Shown: positions 26,031-48,717 of the stretch, one piece after another
How positions within the stretch are numbered: the first letter of the stretch is position 1
Layout of the letters: every line of letters begins with the position of its first letter
From: Candidatus Micrarchaeota archaeon CG10_big_fil_rev_8_21_14_0_10_45_29
GTDB taxonomy: Archaea; Micrarchaeota; Micrarchaeia; Anstonellales; Anstonellaceae
Direction: 5' to 3'
Length of the DNA: 64,000 nucleotides
NCBI GenBank assembly: GCA_002778455.1
Contig: PFCD01000005.1
Span: 27,295 to 91,294 of the forward strand
The notes under the pieces: generated by a model
What the model saw: the letters and a program-made list of their open reading frames with translations, nothing else
The model's database searches: none
What the model was told of the DNA's origin: nothing
Program-made: the position numbers and the translations under genes

Positions 26031-27065
26031 TTATATGAGCTTTATAAGCCCCCGCCCCACCTCATTCAAATCCGCCCCAAAGAGGGCGCCTGTCTGGCGT
26101 ATGAAAGTAAATGTAATAATAAGCGAGACCATCGGCAAAAACAGCGCCTGCATATAAAAGAGGGGCAAAAAGTTTTTTGCCTTCTCTATAAATTCACTGA
26201 TTTCCCCAGAGCTTCCCTGCACGCTTGCAGAAGCTATTATCATATCCGCCGAATCAAAGCCCCCCTCATACCTCTCAACATCCAAAAGAGCCGGGGGGGC
26301 AAATGTTGTGCAAAAAGAGCTTCCCGGAGGCTGAAGCGTCATCAGCATTGCAATTGTAATCGGATATACTGCAAAAAACCCGAATCCCATTGCAAGCAGC
26401 ATTCCGCCCGCGCCTCTTGTAAATGGCAGTATTCTTAGCACAAGCCCAAGCTGTATAAGCACCGGCCCGACATACTTTATCAAAGAGAGAAAATTTATCT
26501 GCAGCCAGTGAAGAAGCAGCAGGAAATTTATATGCCCTGCCAAATATTCCAAAAAGCTTGAATAAACCGTGCTATACCATCCGCCAACCATCTCCACTCC
26601 CAGCGTTTCGGTCTTTAGCGCCCCGATAAACTTATAGAAAAAGTTTATGGCATACGCCACCCTGTAAATTATTATCTCACAGTCAATCATCGTCTCCTTC
26701 AAAAACACCTGCGCAAAAACAAATGGGTCAAAGCGCGCCCCCGCGCTATGCCCTGCGGCAAACGCGGGATAAGCCAAATACATCTCAGATGCCACATCCA
26801 CCATCGTATTCCATGCCAAATTCATAAGAAGCACAAGCGCCCAAACAAGCAGAAACGTCACTATTACCTGCATGTATTCCCCTCTTGCCCATGCGCGCAA
26901 AGAAGGAATGTTAAATGAAATTCCTGCCATATGCACAAGCACGACAATAAATAGCGCGGCAAGCCCCAGCACAGGTATGTTATTGCTCCACGCAACCCAG
27001 CTTTGGCTGTTCATAATCTGCTGCAAGAAAGCATCGTTTGCAACCACACTAGCCGTTGAATACAT
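26031..27065 (-). CDS. Polytopic membrane protein, paralog 6 of the six-gene membrane operon
   Basis: About 344 residues with roughly six transmembrane helices. Near the N-terminus: YMAG-like HMAGISFNIPSLRAWARGEYMQ between two helices. In the middle: LGLVLRILPFTRGAGGMLLAMGFGFFAVYP. The end is FIRQTGALFGADLNEVGRGLIKLI. These three segments recur in all six consecutive genes here. Between them lies an extracytoplasmic stretch with Cys (MIDCEIIIYR, SSFCTTFAPP). I prefer ATG 27065 over the TTG at 27071, as GGGGGG lies about 10 nt before it. Last of the six, followed by the PLD gene. Function unknown; a VirB6-like channel subunit is one idea. Confidence 0.82.
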   Translation of the reverse strand: MYSTASVVANDAFLQQIMNSQSWVAWSNNIPVLGLAALFIVVLVHMAGISFNIPSLRAWARGEYMQVIVTFLLVWALVLLMNLAWNTMVDVASEMYLAYPAFAAGHSAGARFDPFVFAQVFLKETMIDCEIIIYRVAYAINFFYKFIGALKTETLGVEMVGGWYSTVYSSFLEYLAGHINFLLLLHWLQINFLSLIKYVGPVLIQLGLVLRILPFTRGAGGMLLAMGFGFFAVYPITIAMLMTLQPPGSSFCTTFAPPALLDVERYEGGFDSADMIIASASVQGSSGEISEFIEKAKNFLPLFYMQALFLPMVSLIITFTFIRQTGALFGADLNEVGRGLIKLI

Positions 27066-27118
27066 TAGCAAATTCCCCCCGCATTTTCCTCATCATTATT
27101 TATTATAAGCATACCCAC

Positions 27119-28354
27119 TCAAACCATCCTCGTCAAATTCGTCAAATCCATCTGCGTTCCCAGCGCGTGCGTAAGCTCTCTTGCAATCTCAATATATACT
27201 ATAAAATTAATTATAGGCAAAAGCACTCCCGCAATCATATACATCATAACCGCCTGATAAGGCCAAATAACAACCGCGCCAAGCCTGTCTATGCCGCCTG
27301 ATGCAAAATTTGTAAGCGGGTTTTCCCCGGGCTTGCTTTCAGTGAAATATTTTGCCACTTTTGCAGGGTCTGTATCAGCACTCTGTTGCAGCTGCCCGTC
27401 CGCACCTGCCTTCGGATCATAAAGCTTCCCAAACCCCTCACTTATGTTTGTAGCAGTTGCGGAAGGATATATTGTCTGCCCCTCAATCTGCGCCGCAGTT
27501 TGCGAATTGCTATCTATTAAATTAATCTGCTGCCCCCCCACCTGCCGGGTTATCCCCTCAAGCGAGGAATAAACTATCGCATCATTTAGCATGAGGGTTA
27601 TGGGAAAGAAAAACATCGAGGCTATCGCAAGCCCCATCACCGCGCCCCCGAATTCGCGGGTAGGCAGAAAAGTGCGCAAAAGAAGCCCAAGCGGCAAAAA
27701 GAAATATGGCATGGAAAGAAAAAAGAAATCCAGCACCCTCATCTGCACCAATATGCTCAAATAAGAGAGGGTAAAAGCGCTTATGGCAACCATAAAAATA
27801 TTCATAAGCTGCTGAAAGCCTGCCAGCGGCTCAAGCGCGTAGCCTATTCCCATCGGGCTTGAATTCCAAGTCACCTTAAATATGTATGAGAGCGCATAAT
27901 TTATGGCAATTAGCGCCTGGTATATATCATCTCCTCTGGTTTTGACTTTTTTCAAATACCCCTGCGCAACGCAATAAGGGCTCACTTCCGCCGTTCCGGC
28001 AGAGGCAACATTAGTGGCATCCATGCAGTTTTGCATTATTTCCTGCCCGTGCGCCCCTCCATAATAATCCGGCGCAAGAAAAGAGACGTCCCAGTGGCAC
28101 ATGCCCCACATCCAGCCCATCACAAACATCGCAAGAATTGCGGTCGCAACAATCTGGAAAAACTCAAAGCGCGCCCATGCCTGCAATTTGGGGATTCTTA
28201 GCGCGTTTGCGGCCATAAACACCGCAACCACTCCCAAAGACATTGCAAAAAGGGATATAAACACAAGATAAAACCAGTTTCCGCCCACTATGTTATTCAG
28301 GCTCCAGTCGCTAAGAGCCGAGTCCAGCGAAATGCAATAATTTGGTATGTCCAT
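27119..28354 (-). CDS. Polytopic membrane protein, paralog 5 of the six-gene membrane operon
   Basis: 411 residues. It carries the family segments FMAANALRIPKLQAWARFEFFQ, LPLGLLLRTFLPTREFGGAVMGLAIASMFFFP and the tail ELTHALGTQMDLTNLTRMV. Between helices there are two outside regions, one with several Cys (MCHWDVSF, MQNCMDATN, SPYCVAQGYLKK) and one of about 80 residues rich in Gln/Asn/Thr. An AGGGAT site precedes the ATG. It is separated from paralog 4 by 9 nt and from paralog 6 by 53 nt. It is one of the two clearest siblings together with paralog 6. Confidence 0.83.
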   Translation of the reverse strand: MDIPNYCISLDSALSDWSLNNIVGGNWFYLVFISLFAMSLGVVAVFMAANALRIPKLQAWARFEFFQIVATAILAMFVMGWMWGMCHWDVSFLAPDYYGGAHGQEIMQNCMDATNVASAGTAEVSPYCVAQGYLKKVKTRGDDIYQALIAINYALSYIFKVTWNSSPMGIGYALEPLAGFQQLMNIFMVAISAFTLSYLSILVQMRVLDFFFLSMPYFFLPLGLLLRTFLPTREFGGAVMGLAIASMFFFPITLMLNDAIVYSSLEGITRQVGGQQINLIDSNSQTAAQIEGQTIYPSATATNISEGFGKLYDPKAGADGQLQQSADTDPAKVAKYFTESKPGENPLTNFASGGIDRLGAVVIWPYQAVMMYMIAGVLLPIINFIVYIEIARELTHALGTQMDLTNLTRMV

Positions 28355-28363
28355 TTTTTATCC

Positions 28364-29632
28364 CTAAAATATTTTCTCAAAGGCGCTAAGGTCAATCTCG
28401 GTGCCAAGGAATTTCGTAATCTCCTTTATTGCCGTCAGCGTAATAAATATGTTGAAAAGCGGCATTATTACAGACACTATAAGCGTGTAAAATAAAGTGG
28501 CTTTTAGCAATGAGAGGAAAAACACTATTATAAACACAAAAATAAACGTGGAAGGAATAGAGCCTGTAAGAAATGTAAGCCCGCCCAATAATAGCAGGCT
28601 TCCAACTCCTGAATTATTGATGCTTTTCTCAATAAAATTAAGGCTCTCAACCCCTATGAGCCTGAAAAAGCATTTTATGCTCTCCCCCTGCCCGGCGGTG
28701 GAATCTGTGCATGAGCGCATATCTGTAAATTCCGAGCCCAAATTGTTTGCATACACCCCTCCTCCTGCGAAAGTGGCCTCAAGGTAATTCTCAAAAGCAA
28801 TCGCATTCAAATTAAGCACAAACGGGTAAACAAAGTAAAACCCAATCGCTATTGCTATGAGCACATTGCCAAGCCTTGCATAGCCAAACGCCTTCATCAA
28901 AAGCCCTGGGGGCATAAGGGTTGCCATAAGCCGCTGCTGCACAAACAAAAGTATCCACAATTGCGCAAACCATGTGCCCACCGACACCGCCAGCATGGAT
29001 AGCATTATTCCAAGCGAGTCAAATACGGGGCGAAACGCGGGCGCAAGAGAAAACGAAATTCCGATAACTCCGGCAGGCCTAAAATACGGTGTAATATTCC
29101 CTACAGTGGACAATATTGCAGTCAGCGTAGTCATGCTCAAAAATTCATAAATAATAGTGTTTCTCACGGTTTCTGCAAAATTTATCGCGTTTGTTATCTG
29201 CAAAAACCCTATTCCCATAAAGCTTGATGGCGCATTCTCAATTAACACAAAAGCCGCGGCAGAAATCGCAAGTATTATAGCCGACTGCCCCGCTCCGTTC
29301 ATAAGCCCCCTTCCCCACGTGCTTATCCTTGGCCCAAAAAGCCCTGCAAACATTTCCGAGAGCCCGCCCAGCAGAAAGACGATAAAAAGCGCGATAAATG
29401 AGAGCACCACCCATCCATAATCCGGAGCCCTCACATCCCCGGCATCAATTCCCGGAGTAGGCGCCCAGAAATCCTTGAAAAGCAAATCAGGCACAAGCCA
29501 GCCCATAATTCCCTCATCGGCTGCGGCATGCACAGGGGGCGCAAGAAACATCGGCACAATTAAAACAGCCAAAACAATAACCGCTGAGGCAACCGCCCCC
29601 GCCCTATTAATATGCAATTTATTTTCTTTCAT
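28364..29632 (-). CDS. Polytopic membrane protein, paralog 4 of the six-gene membrane operon
   Basis: 422 residues, about eight hydrophobic segments, with an N-terminal signal-like helix (AVASAVIVLAVLIVPMFLAPPVHAA) that may be cleaved. Family motifs are weaker here: FGPRISTWGRGLMNGAGQ, PPGLLMKAFGYARLGNVLIAIAIGFYFVYPFVLNLN and the tail EITKFLGTEIDLSAFEKIF. The outside loop has a Cys pair region (FTDMRSCTDS...IKCFFRLIG). The start codon directly abuts the stop of paralog 3 and uses AGGTTGAT inside that gene as its ribosome site, so translation is coupled. Confidence 0.83.
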   Translation of the reverse strand: MKENKLHINRAGAVASAVIVLAVLIVPMFLAPPVHAAADEGIMGWLVPDLLFKDFWAPTPGIDAGDVRAPDYGWVVLSFIALFIVFLLGGLSEMFAGLFGPRISTWGRGLMNGAGQSAIILAISAAAFVLIENAPSSFMGIGFLQITNAINFAETVRNTIIYEFLSMTTLTAILSTVGNITPYFRPAGVIGISFSLAPAFRPVFDSLGIMLSMLAVSVGTWFAQLWILLFVQQRLMATLMPPGLLMKAFGYARLGNVLIAIAIGFYFVYPFVLNLNAIAFENYLEATFAGGGVYANNLGSEFTDMRSCTDSTAGQGESIKCFFRLIGVESLNFIEKSINNSGVGSLLLLGGLTFLTGSIPSTFIFVFIIVFFLSLLKATLFYTLIVSVIMPLFNIFITLTAIKEITKFLGTEIDLSAFEKIF

Positions 29633-31213
29633 CTATATCAACCTGCTAAGCCCTGCAATCTCAATATCTCCCCCAAGCGTTGGCGAGAGAACCTTTATTG
29701 AAGATAATGTAACCATCAACGAAATAAAGGGCGCAAGAAGGCTGAACATAAAAAGCTTAGACATATTATCTATTGTCCCGTTTTTTCCAAGCAGCTCGTC
29801 CGTTGCAAATGCGCGCGATATTCCTCCCCTATAAGCCTCAATAAGCCTGTTATACCATGCATCCCTCTGCTTTGAGAGGATTGCGGCAGATTCCTCATCT
29901 GTCCCTGTTTTCTCAAAGCACACGCCTGCGATAACCTGCGCTTCCCTCGCAATTCTCTCTTCCCCGTTTGCGCTGCTTGCCAAATACTTCCTAAACTCAT
30001 TCCCGAACGCCCCGTAATAATCATCAACGCAAACACAGTTGTTTGTGTCGCACACCTTTCCTACAGAACATGAGAAAGAGCCATTATGCGCGCTCATGCT
30101 ATTTGCAACAACAGGCGCATCCGCATTTTCATTGCATTGCTCCCACGGCTCAATTTTCCCGTTCGCGCAATAATCAATCATCTTTTGCCCGTCATAGCCC
30201 TGCCCCCAGCCGCTTATTGTTTTTCCAATCCCTGAAATATTCACCGGCCGCACCACTGCAGGCGTCACGCCCTCAAAATTCACATCTGTTTGCATAATGG
30301 ACAGCCCTATTTGCGTTGCATCTGCCCCAACCCACGGGCCTGTGAAAGAGAAAAGCACCGATGCCCAAAACACATACATCATCGGAAACACCAAATAAAA
30401 GCAAATGCCAATCGCTATTAAAAGCCCGCCCAGCTTTCGCGTGAAATAAAACATCCTAAAGAAAATTCCGGCGCACAAAAAGAACGGGAAAAACGCAAGA
30501 TGCCAAAAATCAATCAAAAATTGCTGCGCCCGTATCACAAGCAAATTTTTCATAAGCAAATCAAATGCAAAGCTTAGCGTTTCCACAACAGGCGTAAGCC
30601 CCGCAAACGGGGACACCGAGAGCGCCCCGCCCGGCGCAGGAGTGCCTTTGAACCCAAGCCCCATGCTTGAGAGCACATACAAGAAAGACTCATACCTTAC
30701 AATAGATGTTGCCTGCCCCTGCGTCGCCTTTGCAAGTATTTGCAGATAATCCTCGGCAATTCTTATGTGGCAGGGCCTATCCACTCCCGGCACATTGCAG
30801 CTTAAATCAACCCACGCGCCCCATGCCTGCCCTTCATTTCCCGCAAAAGTAATTGCAGGCAAAGTTGCGCTAAGCATTTGCACCTGCGATATCAAAATCG
30901 CGACACACACGAAAATAATTGCAGAATACGCAATCTGCAAAAGCTCTGCCTTTACCCAAACCTTAATTTTGTCATCTGTTGCAAAGCTTGCATACAGCCA
31001 GGCAAGCACATAAATTCCTATCCCTATCCCGAATGCTGAGAGCATGGGCGCCTGCCATGCGCCCCACCACTCGCTAAATTTACTCATTATCCCCCCATAA
31101 TCCGAAGCTCCCGCGCTTCCAACGCACCCTGAGAGGAAAATAAATGGCAATATTAGCACTAATGCAAATGCGCGCAACGCAAAACCTTTTTCCTGTTTAT
31201 TTTCCACCGTCAT
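29633..31213 (-). CDS. Polytopic membrane protein, paralog 3, with Cys-rich outside loop
   Basis: The longest of the six (526). It has a lipoprotein-like N-terminus (VLILPFIFLSGCVGSAG), then family motifs ATDDKIKVWVKAELLQ, CAGIFFRMFYFTRKLGGLLIAIGICFYLVFP and the tail SPTLGGDIEIAGLSRLI. A large extracytoplasmic insert of about 190 residues holds CANGKIEPWEQCNEN...CSVGKVCDTNNCVC, which follows the spacing of eukaryote- and myxobacteria-like Cys-rich repeats (CGNGxxExxEQC). The probable disulfides fit with the DsbA and DipZ genes in this window. It is 6 nt from paralog 2. Confidence 0.84.
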   Translation of the reverse strand: MTVENKQEKGFALRAFALVLILPFIFLSGCVGSAGASDYGGIMSKFSEWWGAWQAPMLSAFGIGIGIYVLAWLYASFATDDKIKVWVKAELLQIAYSAIIFVCVAILISQVQMLSATLPAITFAGNEGQAWGAWVDLSCNVPGVDRPCHIRIAEDYLQILAKATQGQATSIVRYESFLYVLSSMGLGFKGTPAPGGALSVSPFAGLTPVVETLSFAFDLLMKNLLVIRAQQFLIDFWHLAFFPFFLCAGIFFRMFYFTRKLGGLLIAIGICFYLVFPMMYVFWASVLFSFTGPWVGADATQIGLSIMQTDVNFEGVTPAVVRPVNISGIGKTISGWGQGYDGQKMIDYCANGKIEPWEQCNENADAPVVANSMSAHNGSFSCSVGKVCDTNNCVCVDDYYGAFGNEFRKYLASSANGEERIAREAQVIAGVCFEKTGTDEESAAILSKQRDAWYNRLIEAYRGGISRAFATDELLGKNGTIDNMSKLFMFSLLAPFISLMVTLSSIKVLSPTLGGDIEIAGLSRLI

Positions 31214-31219
31214 ATTAAC

Positions 31220-32293
31220 CTATTCCAATTTATTTGAGAAAAACTTTGTTCCGGCTTTTACAAACGTCACCACAAGCACCATGTTAAGCGCCGGCAAAAA
31301 TACCGACTGCATCACAATATATGAAAGATGCTTTGTAAACCCTCCCGCGCCTATGAAATCCTCTTTTAATTTGGGAAGAAGCTGCAATGATATGCTATCA
31401 TACACCGCCCCCGCCCCGAAAACATAATCTGCCCTGTCCCAATTTTCTTTTCCGCTGCACATGGGATACCCGAAATCATCCTGATACATCTTATACATCA
31501 CCTGCGCGTTTATCATATATGAGAAAGGCAAAATAAAATAAAACGCAAACGCAGTTGCAATCAAAAATCCCCCGGCATCGCGCGTGGGCGCAAACACCCT
31601 CATCAAAATTCCGGCAGGCAGCACAAGTGCAAGCGCAGTTGCATGCACTATCTCAAGCCCCACCTGCTGTGCAAAAAGGCTTGCGGTAAAGGGGGTAATA
31701 AACATAAGTATCAAATCAATCGAGCGCTCAATAACATCAAAACCCGGAAACGCTGGAAACGAGAAGCCCCAGCCGTATGTGGCTGCATAAAACCTTGCCT
31801 TCATCCCTGCAAGGTATTGCGCCCCCATTTTCATTCCCTCAAGCTTTAGCGTAGTGGCGCTTGAGACGCAAATCATCCTGTTAAGGTAATTGTGGGTAAC
31901 ATCAAACGCCCCCATCCCCCCGACGCCGGTAGTTTTTTGCACATAGTCGCCCACAACAGCATCTGCCGCAACCGCGCCAGCAAACAAAAGAAGCCCTATA
32001 AGCACGCTGATTATTCCCTGAAAAATTTCCGTCTTTGCAAACGCCTCCCATTCCGGGTTTTTTAGCGCCTGGGACGCCATATACACAAGCGAGGCGGCAA
32101 AAGCCATCATCGCAAGCCCAAGCGTAATAATGTTTATTATCGGCGTATATTCGCTAATCGCAAATATATTTCCTCCCGCAATGGGCGCAATGCCCGCATC
32201 CTGCGCAAACAAAAAGCCGCAAAGCGCCAAGGCTGGCAAAACAAGCGCAAAGCACAACAATGCAAATTTTTTATTTTCCATTTCTTCTGCCAT
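31220..32293 (-). CDS. Polytopic membrane protein, paralog 2 of the six-gene membrane operon
   Basis: 357 residues. It opens with a hydrophobic signal-like segment (ALLCFALVLPALALCGFLF), then YMASQALKNPEWEAFAKTEIFQ, LPAGILMRVFAPTRDAGGFLIATAFAFYFILPFSYMIN, and a shortened tail ending FVKAGTKFFSNKLE, without the GLSRLI end seen in its siblings. Outside loops carry a few Cys (NRMICVSSAT, YPMCSGKEN). It starts 31 nt after the stop of paralog 1. Six or seven helices are likely. Confidence 0.83.
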   Translation of the reverse strand: MAEEMENKKFALLCFALVLPALALCGFLFAQDAGIAPIAGGNIFAISEYTPIINIITLGLAMMAFAASLVYMASQALKNPEWEAFAKTEIFQGIISVLIGLLLFAGAVAADAVVGDYVQKTTGVGGMGAFDVTHNYLNRMICVSSATTLKLEGMKMGAQYLAGMKARFYAATYGWGFSFPAFPGFDVIERSIDLILMFITPFTASLFAQQVGLEIVHATALALVLPAGILMRVFAPTRDAGGFLIATAFAFYFILPFSYMINAQVMYKMYQDDFGYPMCSGKENWDRADYVFGAGAVYDSISLQLLPKLKEDFIGAGGFTKHLSYIVMQSVFLPALNMVLVVTFVKAGTKFFSNKLE

Positions 32294-32324
32294 TTTTTAT
32301 TTTTTCATACTTTTTCCCGCCGCA

Positions 32325-33791
32325 TCATATCAATTTGCTCATTCCAAACACCCTCGGCTCCCCGCCTATTGCCAAACTGATGTCTTTGAACATTGTAATA
32401 GAAATAACTATTGAATTTGCCAAAAACAGCAAATTAAGCACAAACCAGCTCATGCTTGCGGTAAACTCATCAACCATCGCCTCAAAAAAATACTCTGTAG
32501 GCAAAATAGGGCCGGTAATCCCTTCAAAATTAATCATATATTTTGCAACAATAGGCACGTTTTTCCCAAATGCATCCGCAAGCGCATTTCCCTGGCTTGC
32601 AGGAAGCTGCACATCAACGCTATACTTTGAATTCGGGTCGCTCCCGTCCCATGCCCCCAGCACAACCCCTGTTGTCTCTTTTGTTTCCTGCTCAAATTCA
32701 ATAAGCTGCCCCTTTACTCTCTCAACATATTCGCTCTGGCTCTCCCCCGCTCCCGGCTTGCAAATATCAAGCAGTGAATGGTAATTTGTCCAGTTTATCA
32801 GCTCATCCGCGCCAATGCTAAAGTAAATCTGCTCATTTATCCATATGCTCATAGGATACACAAAATACATCACAAGCGCTATTGCGATAAGGGTGGCGCC
32901 CGTCTTTCTCAAAAAAGGTATTGCCCTAAAGCCCACTCCAAGAGGCAAAAATACCGCCAACGCGCTAGTGTAGACAAATTGAAGCAGCACCTTTTGCGCA
33001 ACAATAGAGCCAACTCCCATTCCCACCAAATCCGTAATCATAATCATTGCCTCGGAAATCGGCGTCAGCCCCGCATTTGGCGCCATGTCAAGGGAAATTG
33101 AGCTGATAAGCGGCTCAGGCAAATAGGCGCTTACCCCGAAAGTGGAAAGCGTGCCAAGCATAAACTCAAGAGAGAAAAGCCCCACATAAATATTCATCAT
33201 ATGCCCAAGCATCACGCCAGAACTTCTCCCCGTGTCCTTGTCATCCCATTGAAGCTCATACAGGCTTGCCACATCCTCATCAGGCCCTGCTTCCATAAGA
33301 TTTTTCACATATTTGTCTTTCTCAAGCGGCATGCAGCCCAAGAACCAGTCAACATTTGCAAAAAGAAGGGTTTGAGGCCGCTCATTTATCGTATTCATCT
33401 TATACACTGTGGCACTGTCCTCGCAAATCATTATAGGCACATTAGGCTGGCTGTCCAAAAGCTTTGAGGTTGCAACGTTTTTTGCAAATTCCCCGTATGC
33501 CGCCAATCCTCCGGCTATTAGCACCACTATAATTATGGTGGCGGCAAGCTCATACAACTCCTGCTTTGCAAACGCCTTTATGGCAGGAATATTTGTCACT
33601 TCTCCAGCCATAAAAGAAAAGGCAACAAAAAGCACCCCTATCATAAGCCCTGCAAAAACCAGCGTAGCATCCTTTGCAAGCGAAAAAGAGGCGCTTGAGC
33701 CTGCGCTCGCGGACCAAACAGATGCAGTTATGGCAACAATCGCAACTAAAGCAATAAATGCCCTAAAATTTTGCCCCACCATCACATTCAC
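32325..33791 (-). CDS. Polytopic membrane protein, paralog 1 (first gene) of the six-gene membrane operon
   Basis: 488 residues. Family segments: FMAGEVTNIPAIKAFAKQELYELAAT, LPLGVGFRAIPFLRKTGATLIAIALVMYFVYPMSIWIN and the tail DISLAIGGEPRVFGMSKLI. Two outside loops contain Cys (MICEDSATV, LGCMPLE, LDICKPGAGE). The start is GTG 33791 or ATG 33782, both after AGAGGTTA. The probable operon promoter is ATAAATAAA near 33858 on the minus strand. The gene diverges from the 1,826-residue protein across 132 nt, which suggests joint regulation. Confidence 0.84.
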   Translation of the reverse strand: MNVMVGQNFRAFIALVAIVAITASVWSASAGSSASFSLAKDATLVFAGLMIGVLFVAFSFMAGEVTNIPAIKAFAKQELYELAATIIIVVLIAGGLAAYGEFAKNVATSKLLDSQPNVPIMICEDSATVYKMNTINERPQTLLFANVDWFLGCMPLEKDKYVKNLMEAGPDEDVASLYELQWDDKDTGRSSGVMLGHMMNIYVGLFSLEFMLGTLSTFGVSAYLPEPLISSISLDMAPNAGLTPISEAMIMITDLVGMGVGSIVAQKVLLQFVYTSALAVFLPLGVGFRAIPFLRKTGATLIAIALVMYFVYPMSIWINEQIYFSIGADELINWTNYHSLLDICKPGAGESQSEYVERVKGQLIEFEQETKETTGVVLGAWDGSDPNSKYSVDVQLPASQGNALADAFGKNVPIVAKYMINFEGITGPILPTEYFFEAMVDEFTASMSWFVLNLLFLANSIVISITMFKDISLAIGGEPRVFGMSKLI

Positions 33792-33923: not shown

Positions 33924-36900
33924 GTGAAAGCGCAAATACTTGCACTGGCATGCCTACTGATATTGCTATCTCCCCTCTACGCCCAAGCCGCGCAAGACAC
34001 AACATCCGCCGCCTCCCAAGCGCTCTCAACAAATTTTCTGGACGACCAATATTCCTCCAACATACAATTTGACCTCTCCAATTTTGCAATCGGGGGCGAT
34101 ATGGCAATAAACGCAACCTATAAGGAAATAAGCTTATACAATACCGGAGGAATAATAGACAACAAGCAAAGCATCACCACTATAAAAATAGCAAAAAAAG
34201 CATTGGTAAGCTTTTACATAGACAACGAAACAATCCCCATAACCGACTCAACAGGAAAGCCGATTTGCCAAAACCTTCTCACAGACAAGAATGGGCGCGC
34301 CTCATGCAATATCGCCTATGCCAAAAACCCCTCCGGCGCAGGCGCGCTTGCAATCCAAAGCTGGCCGCATCCGCGCCCGATTTTAATAGCAAAGCTTCAC
34401 TCCTCGCTTGAAAACCAGAAAATAAAGCCATCTATGGCATCAATTCCCCTCTGGACAAAGGACTCCTACAACCCGGTAATATTTCGCGCATTCTCAAGCG
34501 CGATAAACGGGCAAAGCATTTTCCTCTGCATTCCCATCATCGTGGTATTCGGACTGCTTCTTGCCTCAATGCAATACCACGGGCACAACCCCCTATCGCT
34601 CTTTGACATCACCGTGCCGCGCATGCCAAACATAAAAAAAGTAAGAATGAAATCCCCCGCCGTGCCTGTGCACCTTGCAATGAAGGGGCGCCTCTCCGCC
34701 CGCCTCATGGGGCGCACCGAGAAAGGAATATCCTCGCAGATAACCTCGCTTTACAAAAAAAACAAAAAAGATTCGCGCAACATAAAAAAGGAAATAGACG
34801 CGCTTTTCCCAAGAAGAAAAATAGTAAGAAAAGCCGGCGCGTTCGGCAAGGAAGAGGCATATCAGGCAGCGCTCGCCCGCCTCAAAAAACTAATAGATGA
34901 ATCCGGAGCATCCGAGAAGGACCGCAACCGCGCATATGCAAACGCCCGACGCCTTATGGAAGTGCGCGAGGTGCTGGCGCTCGATGACAAGGTAACCGGC
35001 GCGGCAAGAGGGGGGCAATACAAGCACCCAGGCAAAATAAACCCTGTAATAGATTACGCAGCAACCCGCCTTGCAAAGCCCTGGAAGCTTATACCATCAA
35101 TCGCAAAGCAGGAATGGGCAGACAACCTGCCCGGGCTTCCCTATGTTGAGCGCGCGGGGATTGTTGCGCAAGGATGGCTTGCAGGGCGCGCGGGAAACTT
35201 AAGGATGCGCCGCTCGCTCTACAAATCTTTGGCAGCAGAATCCGCCCTGGCGCTCGGGCTTGCAAGCCGAGAGAGCAAATTCATAAAAGCAAATATTTTC
35301 GAGGAAAAAAAGCTTGGCGAAATTCCGAGAATAGTTGAGAAGATGCGCCAGGAATCCTACCAGCTTGCGCGCGCTCTCATGGATGAGCATCTGCGCACCC
35401 TAACATTAGGCATAGTGCTAAGGCAAAAAAACAAGGACGGCGCGCCCGAGCTTTTAATGGATAAAAAAAGCCTGGAATATGTAAAAAAGCTTGAGCAGCA
35501 AATTCGCGCAGAAATAGAGCGGAAAGTCGCTTCAGGGCAAATACTAAAGGAATTCGCAGAATATTATTTTAAAGAGAAAATGATGATTCAGCTTGCAGAT
35601 TATATAAAGAAAAACAACATCTCTTTGCAAGACGTAACCGGGCAAGCGCTTAGCAAGCAGGAGCTTCAGGATTTCCTTGTCTCTGCAAAGCTTTACGCGA
35701 CAAAAGTGCGCGAGCTTCTTGTAGAGGACGGCTTGAGCGCCGGGGGCGGGCGCTACCCCGACCTTACGTCCGAGCAGGCAAAAAGAATGGACCCAAACCA
35801 GGTTTACAGGCGCTACACAGAATTAATAGGAATACTCGACAATATCTCAAAAGACACTTTGGGGAAAGGAAGGCTCCCCCTTGTGATGCTTGGGCATGAT
35901 TTGGCAGAAATTTTCGGCAAAGCCGTGGATATGCGCCGCCTGCGCGGGGAAATCTCCGCAGACGATGCAACAAAAATGCAGCTTATTCGCGTATATATGG
36001 AAACCGAGCTTGTGAAAAAGCAACTCTATGACTATATAATATCCAACCGCTCGCTTGCAAGCATGGATAAGCCGCAGCTGGAACCCCTGCTTGGCAGCGG
36101 GCTTCTCAACTCCAAATGGCTCAAAGCGCTTGAGGATGCCACCAAAATGCAAAAAGTGCTTGAGCCGCTTAACTACACTTTGCGAGGCGAAGCCGCATCA
36201 AGAAATTTCCTAACCTCTTTTTATGCCCACGACACTCCGTATGCAGTAGAGCTTGAGAAAAACAAAATAAGGGTGTTGCGCGAGCTTTTCACCTACCAAT
36301 TTGACCGCGGGTTTGAAGACCTTTTCAAAAATTATGATTTGCAGGTAAGCAAAAATTTAATGACTTACCATTCAATGAAATCCCTTATCTCCCATTACAT
36401 GGACGGGGCGCAATGGAATGCAGAAAATTACAACGCATGGCTCAAAAAAGGCGCGACATACGGGGACATAAGAAAAGGGGTATGGATAATAGACGCCAAC
36501 CACAACATCCTGCCATTTGCATCAGGCTTCAAATTCGACGGGCAGGGGCGGGCGGCGGAGGCGTATGCAAAATTCAAAAACGGGCATCTTACATATGATC
36601 ACACCACCTTCGGCCTTATGGGCTCCGACTATGCACAGCGCCCAATAAACGCAACTTTAATGTTCAAAAACCCGCAAGGCAACTGGAAGGCAGGCACCTC
36701 CGCAGACGCGCAAACAGACAAAATATTAACTCAGCTAAAGCAATACCATTTTGCCCTCTCCTCCTCCACCTATGGCGGAAAGCTTCTTTTCTCAGGCTAT
36801 TCTTCTGACGGGAAAACCCCTGCAGGCATTCAGGAGGCAGGGCTCTCAAGAAAAGACATCATGAAAAACATAGAAACTTTGCAAAAATCCTTAGGAGAGA

Positions 36901-39404
36901 GAATGCGCCTTGTCACCCGCGCATCGCTTGAGGATGACCCCTCGCACAACTCGCTTTTGCGCTCATGGTATAAGGCAACAAACTTTGTAGAAAGGGTAAC
37001 GCGCGGAGGCATAAACGACCTTGACATGCGGTTGCAGGAATGGTATGCGTCCCAAACATATGCGCGCATGGTTCTCTCAACATATGAGAGCGACATGAAA
37101 AAAGGCATATTCTACTCTGATGAGACGCAAAAATCCCTCACCTCAAAAGAAGAGCTAAATGAAATGCGCAAACAGCAGATAGAGCTTATGAAAAACCCGC
37201 ACCTGGGCGCGGATGAGCGCGCACGCCTCTCCCGCCTCACCAATGTGGAAATTCCGGCGCAAATTACCGCTGTGCGCACAAATGAGCAGATGGCAAGAAA
37301 AATGCAGCGCGAACTTGGATGGGTTGACAGGCATCTTAAAAGCCTTGAGGTTTATGGCATGTTTTACAATGTGGCGGAAAACACCGTCATGAGAGACCCG
37401 CGCATCACATTCGGAAATTCATGGGGGCTGGGCCCTGCGCTGCAATCCGGTTACCACTCAGGGCAATTCGTAGGCGAGCACCCCCAGATGTGGGCAGGCT
37501 ACCATCTTCTTCCAGGGGACAGATTAATGAATTTCTTTGCGCGCCCCTCTTACTGGGCAGCATCCGCCTTTGCTCTTCACACCCGCACATTTTTCACAAA
37601 GATGACCGGCTATGCAACGGTTTATCACCAAGACCCTGAATACGGCTTTGACAAGCAGGGCGCCCCAAGCTCGCACGAGCCATCCGTAGTGGAAGCAATA
37701 CAATCCCTTTTCAAGCCAACCACAAGCTTTGACTGGCTATCGCGCACCTTTTTGCGCCCAATGGTGCGCCGCCCCTCCGACTACACCGATGAATTCGGCG
37801 TGCGCCTGCGCGAGGACAGTGTTGTGGGAATGCGCTATAGAATGCCCCTCTCATTCAAATTCTCTGACATTCAGGGAAAGAACGCCGATTCCTTTGGAAT
37901 AGATGATGCGCGCTTTAAGCAAATTGGCACAGGCGCCGCAGATGAGATGAGGCGAAGAAAATTCGGGCTCACATTCCGCGAGGAATTCATGATGTGGAAT
38001 AAGCGCTATGACGCGCAAATGCAGACAAGCTCGCACGAGATGATGGATTCGCTAAAATCCCACCTCGCATCCGCCACAAGTGCGCAGGAGAGGCAGATGA
38101 TACGCGCGCAAATGCAGGAAGTGCGCGACATTTACCACACAGCAGAGAGGGCGGCGTGGAAAATTCCTATTGTGCGCGACTTTGCGCGCCAAGGGTATTA
38201 TGCTGTGGAAAACCGCTCAGGCTATGACATAAACACAATCGGAGGAGTGCACCGTGGCTATGAATTATCAGGCCCATGGCACAAAACAATTGCAAAAGCG
38301 CCGATTCCGGGAATGATTTGGACTGATTGGGAAGGGCGCGCACAGCCATACGGCTATGTAACAAACACAATTTTCAACAATTTGCAGGATTCCGGAAAAA
38401 TAAAAGACAGCGGGCTTGCGCAAATGCTTCGCAACATCTCTCCTGAGAGGCGCGAGCTTGCATCAGCCTCATTTAGCGAGGAGGATGCAAACGATTATAT
38501 GCTAAAAAGCGGGCTGGGGCGCCACCTTGCCTCAGACTCCTTGCGAGACCTATACAAAAACGAAACCCCTGTCATCCTTGAGTTTGAAAAAGTTGAGCGG
38601 CAAAAGCAGCAATTCCAGTATTCAAACTCACCTTATATTTTCCCAATAGCCCCGGCGTATGTGCTTGCATACCAGATGTTTAAAAAATCCGCATATGGAA
38701 GAAGCCAGCCATGGTCATCAACTCAGGCGCGCCCCACAGACAGCGCAATAACTCCCCAGCAGGATGCAGAGCATGCGCAAATGATGCATGCAAGGCAAAT
38801 GGCTATCGCCTCTGCTTCACAAACCTACTCCTGCCCGGCGCACGGCATAACTTTGCAAACAGGGCAGCAATGCCCGCTTTGCGCAAGCAGCGAGGAAAGA
38901 AAGCTTCATGCCCAGGATTCGCGCCTAAAGCAGTCCGCAAGAAAATCCTACGAGCTTGCAAAAAACTGGGCTCTCTCTGCCGCCTCTTTGGGTGGCACTA
39001 TTCCCATCGGAAATTATAACCAATATTTCAACTCAGCCCGCTGCCCCCATCACGGCATTCCCTTTGAGAGGGGCACAGTATGCCCCATGTGCCTTGAAAA
39101 CCAGGTAAAAACAGTTGAGGGCTTCAGCCACGAGGCTGCGCGCGAATACCAGCGCAAGCTAAAAGATTATATGCGCGAGATAAACCGCACTGCCCGCGAC
39201 CGCCACCTTGATGAAGAGCAAAGAAACAAGGAAATATTGCGCCTTATGCGCGAGCGCGATGAATATGACAAATTCCAGCAAGGGCAAATAAGCCGCGACA
39301 AGCGCCTTGGCTACAGCGAATCCTATGTCTTTTTGCAAAACCAGATAAAAACGATTGCAGAGAACGACAAAAAATACCGCTACACTCTAAAATTTGAAAA
39401 ATAA
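33924..39404 (+). CDS. Giant single-pass membrane protein with two C-terminal zinc ribbons (1,826 aa)
   Basis: A signal peptide (ILALACLLILLSPLYAQA) is followed by an outside domain of about 170 residues containing an Ig-like segment (FYIDNETIPITDSTG...TDKNGRASCNIAY). One transmembrane helix lies near residues 198-215. About 1,600 residues should then be cytoplasmic, mostly helical and charged. Two near-identical zinc-ribbon motifs occur near residues 1637 (CPAHGITLQTGQQCPLC) and 1707 (CPHHGIPFERGTVCPMC), followed by a coiled coil. No Walker A motif is seen. The layout suits a scaffold or docking platform for the adjacent membrane complex. Start is a leaderless GTG. Confidence 0.85.
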   Translation: MKAQILALACLLILLSPLYAQAAQDTTSAASQALSTNFLDDQYSSNIQFDLSNFAIGGDMAINATYKEISLYNTGGIIDNKQSITTIKIAKKALVSFYIDNETIPITDSTGKPICQNLLTDKNGRASCNIAYAKNPSGAGALAIQSWPHPRPILIAKLHSSLENQKIKPSMASIPLWTKDSYNPVIFRAFSSAINGQSIFLCIPIIVVFGLLLASMQYHGHNPLSLFDITVPRMPNIKKVRMKSPAVPVHLAMKGRLSARLMGRTEKGISSQITSLYKKNKKDSRNIKKEIDALFPRRKIVRKAGAFGKEEAYQAALARLKKLIDESGASEKDRNRAYANARRLMEVREVLALDDKVTGAARGGQYKHPGKINPVIDYAATRLAKPWKLIPSIAKQEWADNLPGLPYVERAGIVAQGWLAGRAGNLRMRRSLYKSLAAESALALGLASRESKFIKANIFEEKKLGEIPRIVEKMRQESYQLARALMDEHLRTLTLGIVLRQKNKDGAPELLMDKKSLEYVKKLEQQIRAEIERKVASGQILKEFAEYYFKEKMMIQLADYIKKNNISLQDVTGQALSKQELQDFLVSAKLYATKVRELLVEDGLSAGGGRYPDLTSEQAKRMDPNQVYRRYTELIGILDNISKDTLGKGRLPLVMLGHDLAEIFGKAVDMRRLRGEISADDATKMQLIRVYMETELVKKQLYDYIISNRSLASMDKPQLEPLLGSGLLNSKWLKALEDATKMQKVLEPLNYTLRGEAASRNFLTSFYAHDTPYAVELEKNKIRVLRELFTYQFDRGFEDLFKNYDLQVSKNLMTYHSMKSLISHYMDGAQWNAENYNAWLKKGATYGDIRKGVWIIDANHNILPFASGFKFDGQGRAAEAYAKFKNGHLTYDHTTFGLMGSDYAQRPINATLMFKNPQGNWKAGTSADAQTDKILTQLKQYHFALSSSTYGGKLLFSGYSSDGKTPAGIQEAGLSRKDIMKNIETLQKSLGERMRLVTRASLEDDPSHNSLLRSWYKATNFVERVTRGGINDLDMRLQEWYASQTYARMVLSTYESDMKKGIFYSDETQKSLTSKEELNEMRKQQIELMKNPHLGADERARLSRLTNVEIPAQITAVRTNEQMARKMQRELGWVDRHLKSLEVYGMFYNVAENTVMRDPRITFGNSWGLGPALQSGYHSGQFVGEHPQMWAGYHLLPGDRLMNFFARPSYWAASAFALHTRTFFTKMTGYATVYHQDPEYGFDKQGAPSSHEPSVVEAIQSLFKPTTSFDWLSRTFLRPMVRRPSDYTDEFGVRLREDSVVGMRYRMPLSFKFSDIQGKNADSFGIDDARFKQIGTGAADEMRRRKFGLTFREEFMMWNKRYDAQMQTSSHEMMDSLKSHLASATSAQERQMIRAQMQEVRDIYHTAERAAWKIPIVRDFARQGYYAVENRSGYDINTIGGVHRGYELSGPWHKTIAKAPIPGMIWTDWEGRAQPYGYVTNTIFNNLQDSGKIKDSGLAQMLRNISPERRELASASFSEEDANDYMLKSGLGRHLASDSLRDLYKNETPVILEFEKVERQKQQFQYSNSPYIFPIAPAYVLAYQMFKKSAYGRSQPWSSTQARPTDSAITPQQDAEHAQMMHARQMAIASASQTYSCPAHGITLQTGQQCPLCASSEERKLHAQDSRLKQSARKSYELAKNWALSAASLGGTIPIGNYNQYFNSARCPHHGIPFERGTVCPMCLENQVKTVEGFSHEAAREYQRKLKDYMREINRTARDRHLDEEQRNKEILRLMRERDEYDKFQQGQISRDKRLGYSESYVFLQNQIKTIAENDKKYRYTLKFEK

Positions 39405-39436: not shown

Positions 39437-42364
39437 ATGAAAAACGCGCTATTTATAGCTTTGGCATTGTTTTGCATTATCCTTCTTTTCGGATGCATAC
39501 ATCCGGGCACACTGGGCGCCCAAGACCGCTTTAATTCCAAAACAACAATTAATGTCTCGCAAAAAACAAATCTTGAGCCTGCATCAGATTCCGCCACACC
39601 CTGCACCTGCATGATATGCTCTCAGGAAGAGCCATCTATTTTTGATGAGATTTGGTATGCATTAGGAATACAGGATAAATTAATAGAAAATGATTTGCAG
39701 GGCGCCAACTGCTATTTTGAAGCATGCAACTCCTCAATTTACGCCTCTCTTCTCTCAGAATTTGATGCGGGAAAAGGGGTATGGGCGCAGTGCCCGCAAG
39801 ACGCCTCCTCTTCCTCTTCAGGCAATTCGCAAAACAAATATGATGATAAGGTATGCGCCCCCCGCTACTTTATGCTGGGGCAGGGCGCCTCTTCCGCAGA
39901 ATTTTCCCTTGCACAAAGATATTGCTCAGGACGGCTTAACATGCCGATAATTTGGGCATATTCCAAGGACGGCAAGGAGCCGCCCAAGCCCCCCTCTCCC
40001 CAAACCTTAATGTGCCATCTCTCAAAAAGCCAGATGCCTTTTGTAATATGGTATAGCAACGCCGAGCATATTGATGATGAGGCATACAAAAAAATGGTTG
40101 ACTCTTACAATGATGCAACAGATGACCCGCCAACAGAAGGGCCGATAATGCTAAGCACAGAGGCTTTGCTTGAGCCTTACAAAACAAACGCAAAAGGCGA
40201 GAAATTCCTTAACATTCAAATGCTTGAGAAAGTGCGCGCGCAAATAGATTACACTGCCCTCAACTGCCCCTCCTGCATTCCCGTGCTTGCCCTCAAGCCA
40301 ACCTTTACAACCGACGGCTTGCCTGATTTGTGCCCAATAGACTATTTCCTGCGCTTTAACACCTCTCTTGCGGATTTGGGGGGAGACCCGCTCAACTGCT
40401 CATCAAAATACGAGAACCCGTCCCAATATTCCTCACGCCCCGCAACCCGCGAGAATTACCTAAAAAAAATAGGGGCAATCGGAATAGCTTTTATTGCAAA
40501 TGAAAACGCAAACCTCACCACCTGCACCCCTATGTATGATATCGCGCGCCATCTGCGCTATTCTGATGAGCTTTTATTGCATTACCACTCTCCTTCTGTT
40601 TGGTATGCAGTCGGAATTTCCCCAGGCGCCACAAACACCCCCAACTGCGCATTTAGCGAGGCGGAAGTGGCGGATGCGTATAGCTTTTTGATGGCAGGAA
40701 TACCCGGCTTTGTCGCAAGCGGGGTAATAGGCGTCTCGCCCTACACATTTCTTTCCTCAACCGCGCCTCTTCCATGCAAAAGCCAGCTCTCTTACGGCTC
40801 TTTAGACTATGCCGCTTTCTCCTCAATAGGGGCAAATAAAAAATTCACCACTTTGCAAGGGGCTCAAATAAACTCAACAAAAGTATTTTTCAAAAACGAC
40901 ACACACCTCTCTTTTCAGGATGAATTTTCAAACTACTATATCGCATATTATGATGAGCCAACATTCTCCTTTATGCTCAACCTCACAGGATGCAACTTCG
41001 GCTTTAGGCAAACTGACGGCTCTATGCAAAACCTCACCTCTTTCTCCTGGTTTTCTGCCTGCCAGCTATACTTTACAAACAACGCGCCCCTATTTGAGGC
41101 AGACATATCCTCAATTTCGCAAATTCGCGCAGGCACCCAAATAAAGCCAAAAATAGGCGGGCTTCCCTCTTTGCAGGTGCTCTCAATAAATTCCTCCGAG
41201 GACGGGCACGTAATATTTTTCTCAGGGGACAAGCGCTATTCTGCCAAAAAGGACGGCGAGCGCATAATGATATATGACATGCCTCGGCTCAACTACTCCC
41301 AGCAGCCGCTGATGTTTTCCACAAATTCCGTAGGCTCCACCTGCGCTCCCTTTGAATCCGGCAAAATGCTTTATTATACCTCCCTCTCCCGCCCATCCGA
41401 TTTCGGGCAATACGGCATCAGCCCGCCGCAAAGCCCGCAAGAGCTTGAAAAAATAGCCGCCTTGCAGTGCGGAGGCTGCCTCTCATCAGTTCCAATGCCG
41501 TTTAATTTCTGCAGTATTTTATCTGACATCGGCACGGTTTCATTTCCCAAAGATGCCTGCACCCAATACCCTGAAATGGATATCTCGTTTATTTCCCACA
41601 GCCTTGACCCAATACTTATGCGCGCCATTTCCGTGGGCGAGGGAAGCCGCCTTGGAAGGCAAAGCTCTGAGCCAAGCCCGAATGCCCCTGCATGCACCAT
41701 AAGCCCAACTGATAGGAGCGACTGGTGCGGCAACAAGACTCAAAAGCAGCCTTCCAACCTTGCAAAATTTGAATATCCTTATTGCACCGGAATAGAGCAA
41801 AAGGCGCAAAATATAGTAACCGCCTATGGCGGCATTTGCGCCCTTGGGCTTATGCAATGCATAAAGCCCCCATCTGATGACTACAATCCATTCAACCCCG
41901 TGGATTCAGCCGATTGCGGCTCCTACGAATTCAAGGAAAAGGCGGGGAGGTATGACAGCTATTTGAAAATTTTGCAAAATATGCGCGCCTCAAACCCCTC
42001 AATAGATGCCTTCAATCCCAAAAAGGGCGGAATAGGCGCAAATGAAATTGAGTGGTATGCGGCATGGATAGCGGCTTACCGCTACAGCGGAATGAGGGTT
42101 GTTAATGAGGCGCTTATAAGAAATTACGCGCAGCAGGATTCAGGCGACAACATAGTAAAATACGTGCACAGGGAAACAGTTAGCTATTGCGCGGATTTGA
42201 GGCAAAAGGACCCGAAAGCCGACTGTTACCCCTTCTACGGCACAAAAGCAATCCTTCTTTACAACGAGGCAATCTCTGTGTGCTCCAACGGCTGCCCCCA
42301 CCAAACATGCGAGGCACTGGCTGAAGGGGATGATGGCTACGAGGATGAAACCTACCTTGATTAA
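39437..42364 (+). CDS. Large Cys-rich lipoprotein with C-terminal lysozyme/SLT-like domain
   Basis: The N-terminus is a lipoprotein signal (ALALFCIILLFGCIHPG). The mature 955 residues carry more than 30 Cys and many sequons, so it is an extracytoplasmic, disulfide-rich protein. The C-terminal 250 residues show the order of a lytic transglycosylase: DPILMRAISVGEGSR with candidate catalytic Glu near 732, GICALGLMQCIKPP with the hallmark GLMQ near 805, then FNPKKGGIGANEIEWYAAWIAAYRYSG like the late SLT repeat helices. The Glu-to-GLMQ distance is longer than usual, because of a Cys-rich insert. Its TATA box (CTTAATAAAA, 26 nt upstream) overlaps the end of the giant gene. Confidence 0.78.
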   Translation: MKNALFIALALFCIILLFGCIHPGTLGAQDRFNSKTTINVSQKTNLEPASDSATPCTCMICSQEEPSIFDEIWYALGIQDKLIENDLQGANCYFEACNSSIYASLLSEFDAGKGVWAQCPQDASSSSSGNSQNKYDDKVCAPRYFMLGQGASSAEFSLAQRYCSGRLNMPIIWAYSKDGKEPPKPPSPQTLMCHLSKSQMPFVIWYSNAEHIDDEAYKKMVDSYNDATDDPPTEGPIMLSTEALLEPYKTNAKGEKFLNIQMLEKVRAQIDYTALNCPSCIPVLALKPTFTTDGLPDLCPIDYFLRFNTSLADLGGDPLNCSSKYENPSQYSSRPATRENYLKKIGAIGIAFIANENANLTTCTPMYDIARHLRYSDELLLHYHSPSVWYAVGISPGATNTPNCAFSEAEVADAYSFLMAGIPGFVASGVIGVSPYTFLSSTAPLPCKSQLSYGSLDYAAFSSIGANKKFTTLQGAQINSTKVFFKNDTHLSFQDEFSNYYIAYYDEPTFSFMLNLTGCNFGFRQTDGSMQNLTSFSWFSACQLYFTNNAPLFEADISSISQIRAGTQIKPKIGGLPSLQVLSINSSEDGHVIFFSGDKRYSAKKDGERIMIYDMPRLNYSQQPLMFSTNSVGSTCAPFESGKMLYYTSLSRPSDFGQYGISPPQSPQELEKIAALQCGGCLSSVPMPFNFCSILSDIGTVSFPKDACTQYPEMDISFISHSLDPILMRAISVGEGSRLGRQSSEPSPNAPACTISPTDRSDWCGNKTQKQPSNLAKFEYPYCTGIEQKAQNIVTAYGGICALGLMQCIKPPSDDYNPFNPVDSADCGSYEFKEKAGRYDSYLKILQNMRASNPSIDAFNPKKGGIGANEIEWYAAWIAAYRYSGMRVVNEALIRNYAQQDSGDNIVKYVHRETVSYCADLRQKDPKADCYPFYGTKAILLYNEAISVCSNGCPHQTCEALAEGDDGYEDETYLD

Positions 42365-42396: not shown

Positions 42397-42429
42397 ATGC
42401 ATTATAAATTTCCCCGCCCTTCTTTTTTC

Positions 42430-43455
42430 ATGCTTTTGTTTCAAAGCACCCAATACGCTTCCAACACCAGGCTTTTTTCCAAAGAAGCGCTTGAAATTAT
42501 AAAATCAACTTTTAGCTACTGCGAGCTAAACTCTTATTACAAAAGCGTCTTTGGCACAACAATTTCAATAATAGTGTCTGAAAACAGGGCGCAAAGCGGA
42601 ATGGATTACAAAGACAACCGCCTCATAATAAATATGGGTTATTTCAATTCAGCAAAAGAAAACCCGCTAAAATTCACCCTCGAAGCGATAAAAACCATGC
42701 AGGCAGCAAGGAAAAACAGCTCAAAAACAAAATGCACTCCCCTCTCAAAAGAGGAAAATAATGCATTTGAGCGCTCAATAAAAACCATCGAAAGAAAAAT
42801 AATGCTAAAAGAAACCATTCCAATAAAAATAGAGCAGGAAGGAAAATACACAAAAAGCAAAATATTCATCTCACAAAAATATGTTGACGCATACAAAAAA
42901 CTAAAGAATAAGGAAAACCTCTCTTTGGAAGCATTTACATACGCCTATTCCATTTACGAGGGCGCAACGGACGCGGGGAAAGCAAAAAAAGGAAAATTCC
43001 TTCTTGAGGACCTTAACAAAAATTCCAAAGAAAAGCGCTTTTACCTCATAAACACAAATACAATGGAAGTGGAGCACTCCTGCAATTCCGCCCACGGCTT
43101 TGCAAGCGACAAAAACAAAGACGGCTGGGTGGACTCCGTCTCAAACAAAAAGGGCTCATACAAATCCTCCTCAGGCGCATACATCCTAAAAAAAGGAAAA
43201 AACGAGAAATTCGGGCATTTCTGGATGCCTGCCGGAATTTCCACCACCAACTACAATTCAATAGAGCGGGGCACTTGGCTGCATTATTTGAGGGGAAACT
43301 ACAGCGGCGGATGCCACACCATAAAAGTGGAGGACGCGAAAAAAATAGGGCTTGCCCTAAAGGATTACTCTGCCCCGGCAAGCAACTGGGAAGGCTATCT
43401 CTTTATCTCATATTATGATAAAAAAGTGCAAAACTCTTATAAAAAGAAGCAATAA
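42430..43455 (+). CDS. L,D-transpeptidase-like (YkuD_2-type) protein
   Basis: The C-terminal half has the pattern of the murein L,D-transpeptidase family: RFYLINTNTMEVEHSCNSAHGF, GSYKSSSGAYILKKG, GHFWMPAG, and the catalytic SGGCHTI with Cys 295 and His 296. In bacteria this Cys links peptidoglycan stem peptides. The N-terminal 190 residues are helical, Lys-rich and unrecognised. I choose ATG 42430 since CATTATAAAT is centred 25 nt upstream; the ORF-track ATG 42397 precedes that box. From this start no clear signal peptide is visible, which is odd for a wall enzyme. Archaea lack murein, so the substrate is unknown. Confidence 0.72.
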   Translation: MLLFQSTQYASNTRLFSKEALEIIKSTFSYCELNSYYKSVFGTTISIIVSENRAQSGMDYKDNRLIINMGYFNSAKENPLKFTLEAIKTMQAARKNSSKTKCTPLSKEENNAFERSIKTIERKIMLKETIPIKIEQEGKYTKSKIFISQKYVDAYKKLKNKENLSLEAFTYAYSIYEGATDAGKAKKGKFLLEDLNKNSKEKRFYLINTNTMEVEHSCNSAHGFASDKNKDGWVDSVSNKKGSYKSSSGAYILKKGKNEKFGHFWMPAGISTTNYNSIERGTWLHYLRGNYSGGCHTIKVEDAKKIGLALKDYSAPASNWEGYLFISYYDKKVQNSYKKKQ

Positions 43456-46436: not shown

Positions 46437-47195
46437 CTACTTTGAGCCGAGGTTGAATATGTTCAATTCCAGCTTTTTATCCTTCTCAAGTTTTTTTGCA
46501 ATCTCTTCCAAAACAATTTTCTTTATTTTCATGTATTCCTCCTTTGGGTACTGCACGTTTCCAATCGCGTAGCGAAGCGATTTTGCATTAAAACAAAACA
46601 TGCACTCGGTTGAATTTTCAAGATTATGGCAGAAGTAGCAGTCTGAGCAGTTTGTGGAGTTTGAAACCTCAAAACATCTTGAGAGCTTGAGGGAATCGTA
46701 GCATTTTATGCAGGTTTTTGATGAGAATGCCCTGTCGCAACCAAAGACGTATTCAGATTCTCGGGGCCACATGCAAAAGGCGCAGAATTTGTTGTTTGCA
46801 AAATAGAGCAATTTGTAGCAGTAGCTTGAGTAGGCAGTTGTGCTGCATTCGTACAGCTCAGTGTTTTTTCCGACTATCCCTTCCGGGGAATAGAAAGTCA
46901 TCCCCTTTAGGAGTTTTGGGGCGTTCTGCAAGTTTATTTTGCCCGTGTTTTCCTCTCCGATGTTCCTTCCTGAGAGAGTAAGGGATTCCTCAAGAGTTAC
47001 AAGGAGATTTCTGGTTTTCTCAACCTGTATGAAGGATGGAATCGGCATGGGGGTTTGGCTCATTGCCGATTTTTGGGTGGATGGGACCATCACATTCTCG
47101 GAGAGCCATTCCCCATAGTTGTCCATGTTTTTTAGGGGTGTGCCGAGGACTATCTTGCTGACAGTTGTAAATGCCTCATCTATGTCACTTTTCAT
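46437..47195 (-). CDS. Cys-rich repeat protein, type B copy 2
   Basis: 252 residues, no signal peptide. The N-terminal half is mixed helical (WLSENVMVPSTQKSAMSQ). The C-terminal half has closely spaced Cys (CIKCYDSLKLSRCFEVSNSTNCSDCYFCHNLENSTECMFCFN) and the end YAIGNVQYPKEEYMKIKKIV. This resembles Cys-rich solenoid-like repeat proteins common in CPR bacteria and DPANN archaea. CxxC pairs suggest metal binding. The end KLEKDKKLELNIFNLGSK is shared with the gene at 47933. Overlaps the upstream gene by 11 nt. Confidence 0.8.
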   Translation of the reverse strand: MKSDIDEAFTTVSKIVLGTPLKNMDNYGEWLSENVMVPSTQKSAMSQTPMPIPSFIQVEKTRNLLVTLEESLTLSGRNIGEENTGKINLQNAPKLLKGMTFYSPEGIVGKNTELYECSTTAYSSYCYKLLYFANNKFCAFCMWPRESEYVFGCDRAFSSKTCIKCYDSLKLSRCFEVSNSTNCSDCYFCHNLENSTECMFCFNAKSLRYAIGNVQYPKEEYMKIKKIVLEEIAKKLEKDKKLELNIFNLGSK

Positions 47196-48712: not shown

Positions 48713-48717
48713 GTGAA

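Follow-up and report, generated by a model that had tools for sequence, protein, structure and literature searches.

The gene at 39437-42364 of the window (the whole stretch of 64,000 nucleotides analyzed here, from a micrarchaeal assembly of 1.15 Mb in 20 contigs, 84.65% complete) encodes a lipoprotein whose C-terminal domain is, on the sequence evidence, almost certainly homologous to the SLT/lytic transglycosylase superfamily. The best explanation as a whole, to which we give a probability of about 0.5, is that of a surface glycan-cutting lipoprotein that acts on the walls of other organisms at a site of cell contact or transfer. To our knowledge, little has been learned about the organisms with which most Micrarchaeota live. 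If about four fifths of the genomes of the order encode a surface enzyme that cuts walls, in cells with no sign of making murein, the question whether these archaea live on bacteria becomes directly testable. The lipoprotein may help the archaeon to open or grip a neighbor's wall, and the conserved membrane locus beside it, of which the searched papers hold no description, may be a contact or transfer machine.

Table 1. Features of the lipoprotein locus, with positions in the window.
Feature	Position	Strand	Basis
Array of six polytopic membrane proteins, paralogous and distantly CedA/VirB6-like, transcribed divergently from BIG	26031..33791	-	Paralogy; CedA matches; locus conservation
BIG, giant 1826-aa protein directly upstream of the lipoprotein	33924..39404	+	Adjacent to the lipoprotein gene at many loci
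Lipoprotein gene	39437..42364	+	ORF of 975 aa with signal/lipobox, TIM-barrel-like domain, beta-rich region and SLT-like domain; orthologues throughout the order
Lipobox LFGC, predicted lipidated Cys20	39485..39496	+	Sequence
N-terminal region: (beta/alpha)8 barrel like clan GH-A glycosidases, then beta-rich region	39596..41554	+	AlphaFold model, Foldseek
Glu242, near-invariant, C-terminal end of predicted barrel strand 4	40160..40162	+	Alignment, model strands
SLT/lytic-transglycosylase-like domain	41558..42313	+	Family alignment, Pfam matches of relatives, model, profile-profile comparison
Glu735 (GAG), candidate catalytic acid, RAI...E motif	41639..41641	+	Conservation; aligned with the ES Glu of SLT enzymes
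GLMQ motif	41846..41857	+	Conservation; aligned with GLMQ of the SLT profile
YNPFNP motif	41882..41899	+	Conservation; aligned with FDPRTN..G of SLT enzymes
WYAAW...YRYSG, counterpart of the late AxxAYNxG motif	42053..42091	+	Conservation of Tyr and Gly
YkuD_2 (L,D-transpeptidase-like) gene directly downstream of the lipoprotein	42397..43455	+	PF13645, E 1.8e-15

Architecture and Distribution of the Lipoprotein

The window protein begins with an N-terminal signal and a lipobox cysteine, as is typical of bacterial-type lipoproteins. An earlier reading of the sequence alone (the sequence-only reading) had called it an archaeal lipoprotein, and the family agrees with this, a lipobox being found in at least 44 of the 61 full-length members scanned, while a CxCMxC motif following the lipobox is common to the aligned members. 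That reading had placed a lysozyme/SLT-like domain at 41580-42364; the domain is present, but it is only the cysteine-rich C-terminal part of a much longer gene and starts slightly further upstream, at Cys708 (41558).

Relatives were recovered from 18 of 59 genomes by a single-sequence search, from 63 of 84 genomes of the order with a profile built from 18 domains, and from 74 of 301 genomes of the phylum with a profile of 70 domains. Of the latter, 67 belong to the window's order (67 of about 84 genomes), and one of the seven outside it (G147) resembles a plain SLT protein. Most matches are C-terminal, in ORFs that measure about 720-1135 aa.

The C-Terminal Domain Belongs With Lytic Transglycosylases

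Direct searches of Pfam, PDB and NCBIfam with the window protein gave nothing of note, the Pfam match being missing because this copy is too divergent. Its relatives are more telling: Pfam SLT (PF01464) matched 43 of 70 homologous domains, the best with 3.4e-10, and several members individually exceed the curated cut-off. An independent SLT alignment of 20 clear SLT proteins from the same class was compared with the family profile and matched it with a probability of 98.4% (P 1e-14), pairing the family Glu with the SLT Glu, GLMQ with GLMQ, and NPFNP...G with FDP...G. Unrelated profiles, by comparison, gave P 0.22-0.5 and column-shuffled versions P 0.6-0.99. The six domains closest to the window's matched the SLT profile with P 4.5e-5 and the window sequence alone with P 1.6e-4, in both cases over the GLMQ-NPF part only. 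By profile homology the domain falls with the SLT enzymes of lytic transglycosylase family 1, through the relatives above the Pfam cut-off and the profile-profile P of the whole family.

The structural evidence is compatible with this, though weak. The confident AlphaFold model of the domain (pLDDT 89) finds MltE as its best solved match in Foldseek, albeit weakly (E 0.6, prob 0.63), with cod g-type lysozyme at rank 44, and all ten matches of a PDB profile search are lytic transglycosylases, again weak (E 0.03-1). A search of viral structures returned weak transglycosylase-like matches only. Comparison with the SLT fold, which had been proposed as a check, thus yields lytic transglycosylases as the best solved neighbors with poor E-values; the fold evidence is compatible with SLT but not decisive, whereas the sequence evidence is decisive. 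Of the double label lysozyme/SLT given at the outset, the SLT half is borne out by the Pfam matches of the relatives and the controlled profile comparison, while goose-type lysozyme was rejected, since MltE ranks first and the PDB profile matches are all transglycosylases. SLT/lytic transglycosylase is the better label. No cell-wall-binding domain was recognized in the lipoprotein.

The active-site motifs are conserved across the 72 aligned domains, with Arg729 kept in 67, Glu735 in 63, Gly804 of GLMQ in all 72 and its Gln in 59, Pro818 and Phe819 of NPF in 71 and 68, and Tyr883 and Gly885 of the late YxG motif in 62 and 58, respectively. Since the mean column identity is merely 16%, this conservation reflects selective constraint and not general similarity, and the three SLT motifs, as judged from the alignment, are not a product of chance. 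The sequence-only reading had noticed the Glu in RAISVGEGSR, GLMQ and a late motif in the SLT order, and all three are found and conserved; within the late stretch it pointed to, FNPKKGGIGANEI is not conserved, but the YNPFNP motif and the AxxxYxG at the end of the stretch are. An acidic residue in the candidate active site, the lack of which that reading had taken to speak against its assignment, is retained as well.

The motif order, RAIxxxE(S), GLMQ, (N/D)P...G and late AxxAYxG, is that of the family 1 lytic transglycosylases (PF01464; e.g. MltC, EmtA/MltE and EtgA), in which catalytic Glu, GLMQ and AxxAYN find their counterparts in Glu735, GLMQ and YRYSG. Lytic transglycosylases cleave murein to yield 1,6-anhydroMurNAc. 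The window copy differs from them in that the Ser after the catalytic Glu position is replaced by Gly (EG, not ES), in its large cysteine-bearing insertions (about 250 aa against 117 profile positions), in lying below Pfam detection, and in belonging to an archaeal lipoprotein where a predicted TIM barrel precedes it. Across the class, 58 of 295 genomes have PF01464 matches, often in proteins of different size, and on one contig (50195-52226 of C39 in genome G021, covered in part by locus L170) three SLT-domain genes stand in tandem, one of them interrupted by a stop.

The Predicted N-Terminal Barrel

The model of the N-terminal region (pLDDT 86.8, pTM 0.88) shows an alpha/beta barrel with the strand-helix order of a TIM barrel, followed by a beta-rich region. 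Its top Foldseek matches are GH-A-type glycosidases (E 1.2e-4, prob 1.0), with low TM-scores, and no significant Pfam or PDB sequence match was obtained for the region. In clan GH-A the acid/base Glu stands after strand 4, its usual position, and the nucleophile Glu after strand 7. Glu242, near-invariant in the family alignment, follows strand 4 by our own strand count, but for the end of strand 7 neither alignment nor model shows a Glu that is conserved, so that the pair of Glu residues characteristic of the clan is not seen. The modeled domain looks like, or may have descended from, a glycosidase barrel, and we claim no membership of a GH family.

A Conserved Membrane Locus

Within the window's family, all loci that extend far enough on the upstream side show the arrangement array-BIG-lipoprotein, which one other family of the order has as well. 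BIG also adjoins the lipoprotein in additional families and in a single genome from outside the order. Two transmembrane stretches are predicted close to the N-terminus of BIG, two CPxHG...CPxC zinc-ribbon-like motifs stand close to its C-terminus, and it has no significant Pfam match. The six array proteins stand in tandem and share an R-x-FPFTRK-x-G core, and relatives have further arrays of this family on other contigs (L140-L145).

A weak match to CedA (E 0.0099) was obtained for one array member. Within the order, 39 of 83 genomes give a weak signal with the CedA model; of the controls, Sulfolobus acidocaldarius and Bacillus subtilis alone do so. Members of the window's array family are present in all of the six loci that match CedA best. 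A PDB profile search of the array family returned nothing, with no VirB6 structure matched. Taken together, the sequence matches support, but do not prove, a distant relation of the array to CedA/VirB6.

The PrgI-VirB4 ATPase was not found in the window's genome (84.65% complete), in which two HerA-like ATPases were the only ones seen; a minority of relatives do have a PrgI-VirB4 fusion, encoded at other loci. Some relatives encode VirB4-like ATPases of about 1020-1046 aa at L149 (5590-8643) and L150 (5613-8750), the latter with a PrgI-like N-terminus, and one genome (G013) has several copies. Such multiple VirB4-like ATPases suggest mobile conjugative elements in Micrarchaeota.

These findings bear on two known systems. 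As for the VirB1-type lytic transglycosylases of type IV secretion, a transglycosylase-like domain is encoded together with distantly VirB6-like membrane proteins, and the array is adjacent and conserved. Its likeness to CedA and VirB6 is weak, VirB4 was found neither beside the lipoprotein nor in the genome, and the host is an archaeon without murein. Because PrgI-VirB4 was not found and the CedA/VirB6 relation is unproven, the lipoprotein was not classed as VirB1. With the archaeal Ced/Ted DNA-transfer systems the locus shares a membrane-protein array that matches the CedA profile weakly but consistently; unlike in those systems, a CedB partner was not identified here, and the paper describing them mentions no wall-cutting enzyme, neither peptidoglycan nor VirB1 occurring in its text (PMC9905601).

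Proposed Function and Substrate

The lipoprotein would be membrane-anchored and extracellular, with two glycan-active modules, the TIM-barrel glycosidase-like domain and the SLT domain. Cleavage of a glycan by the window copy appears likely, and the SLT domain would most probably use Glu735 to cut the beta-1,4 bond of MurNAc-GlcNAc or of a similar HexNAc polymer. What the analysis establishes is homology, the conserved Glu, the lipobox, the domain layout and the gene linkage; catalysis, the substrate and a part in a contact machine are inferences from these.

The statement in the sequence-only reading that archaea have no murein holds for this genome as far as the Mur_ligase_M search goes. It gave exactly one match, a protein with the middle and C-terminal domains only, and at most one match per genome of the order. 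The neighbors of the gene, which we take to be PurB-, GlyA-, FolD- and PurN-like, belong to folate and purine metabolism, and the protein is most probably FolC; own murein synthesis was rejected on these grounds, none being indicated by this search. The YkuD_2 gene next to the lipoprotein, which carries an SGGC motif, is no evidence of a wall either, since no more than 8 of the order's 83 genomes have YkuD_2; the gene adjoins the lipoprotein also in one relative (L022) and is absent from most. Without a sign of murein synthesis in the cell itself, the enzyme would be aimed at the wall of a neighbor or host, for which we see about even odds.

A different substrate would be the archaeon's own surface glycan, of an S-layer or glycolipid, which an active enzyme might remodel where the BIG/VirB6-like complex crosses the envelope. 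The presence of the family almost throughout the order and its fixed locus resemble a housekeeping envelope function more than a patchy weapon, and weapon-like archaeal hydrolases are indeed reported to be patchy (PMC12352652). The SLT superfamily is known, though, for the HexNAc-HexNAc beta-1,4 bonds of murein, and no such substrate of the cell's own was identified here, so that we regard this role as rather unlikely.

Improbable, too, is that the domain serves mainly as a non-catalytic glycan-binding or structural module, the lectin-like tip of a contact complex. Nine of the 72 members lack the Glu, three of them having Gln instead, the domain is strongly divergent with large insertions, and several conserved cysteines suggest a stabilized scaffold. 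The Gln-bearing copies (L078, L079 and L095) are second copies encoded by shorter ORFs and thus obvious candidates for paralogues without activity, and their genomes carry a Glu-bearing copy elsewhere. The loss of the Glu indicates that some copies have probably lost their activity, so that a role in binding only keeps some weight, but its retention in most members, alongside GLMQ and the late YxG, would be unexpected without selection on the active site.

Wall-cutting enzymes in archaea without murein have precedents. Large extracellular murein-like lytic transglycosylases that potentially act on bacterial walls have been described in Pacearchaeota and Woesearchaeota (fam00969, PMC8204110; GH23, PMC9723730), where they are reported to be widespread while being mostly absent elsewhere. 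Like the window protein they are large extracellular transglycosylase-domain proteins of DPANN organisms that lack murein; the window protein is set apart from them, as described, by being micrarchaeal and lipid-anchored, by its combination of barrel and SLT domain, and by its fixed locus. Neither the micrarchaeal family nor its locus was found described in the literature searched, a scope outside of which most subscription papers lie, so that within it both the two-domain form, spread across the order, and the locus are new. A 2025 report describes archaeal peptidoglycan hydrolases by which bacteria are killed (PMC12352652), and the woesearchaeal enzymes were read as a sign of predation (PMC9723730), but an enzyme dedicated to attacking bacteria or to scavenging nutrients from murein, without connection to a secretion or contact machine, is very improbable here, as the protein is lipid-anchored and bound to one locus across families, whereas weapons are usually patchy and released.

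The preferred reading, an enzyme acting on a foreign wall, is joined to its locus by gene linkage: since the gene is accompanied by BIG and, within the window's family, by the CedA/VirB6-like array, the lipoprotein would probably work at a cell-contact or transfer site and loosen the partner's wall there. Its role would be functionally like that of VirB1-type or epibiont lytic transglycosylases; in a patescibacterium, homologues of lysozyme and peptidase adjoining virB4 are essential for epibiotic growth (PMC12102498). That it is an accessory of a CedA/VirB6-like machine we propose only tentatively. Bolder still, and unlikely at present, is the idea of an ancestral, chromosomally fixed contact machine of CedA/VirB6-like pores, giant scaffold and lipoprotein, the last being a dual glycosidase by which the murein wall of a bacterial partner is opened; if true, it would be the archaeal counterpart of VirB1-equipped secretion systems, aimed at bacterial hosts.

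Origin and Further Genes of the Window

Phage and plasmid origins were rejected, as phage records gave no tblastn match and plasmids no match. Two long ORFs at 56389-61264 (863 and 783 aa) have one predicted transmembrane stretch each and no significant Pfam match, and at 46437-49527 four paralogue-like ORFs of about 250-270 aa, with many Cys pairs, stand in tandem on the minus strand.
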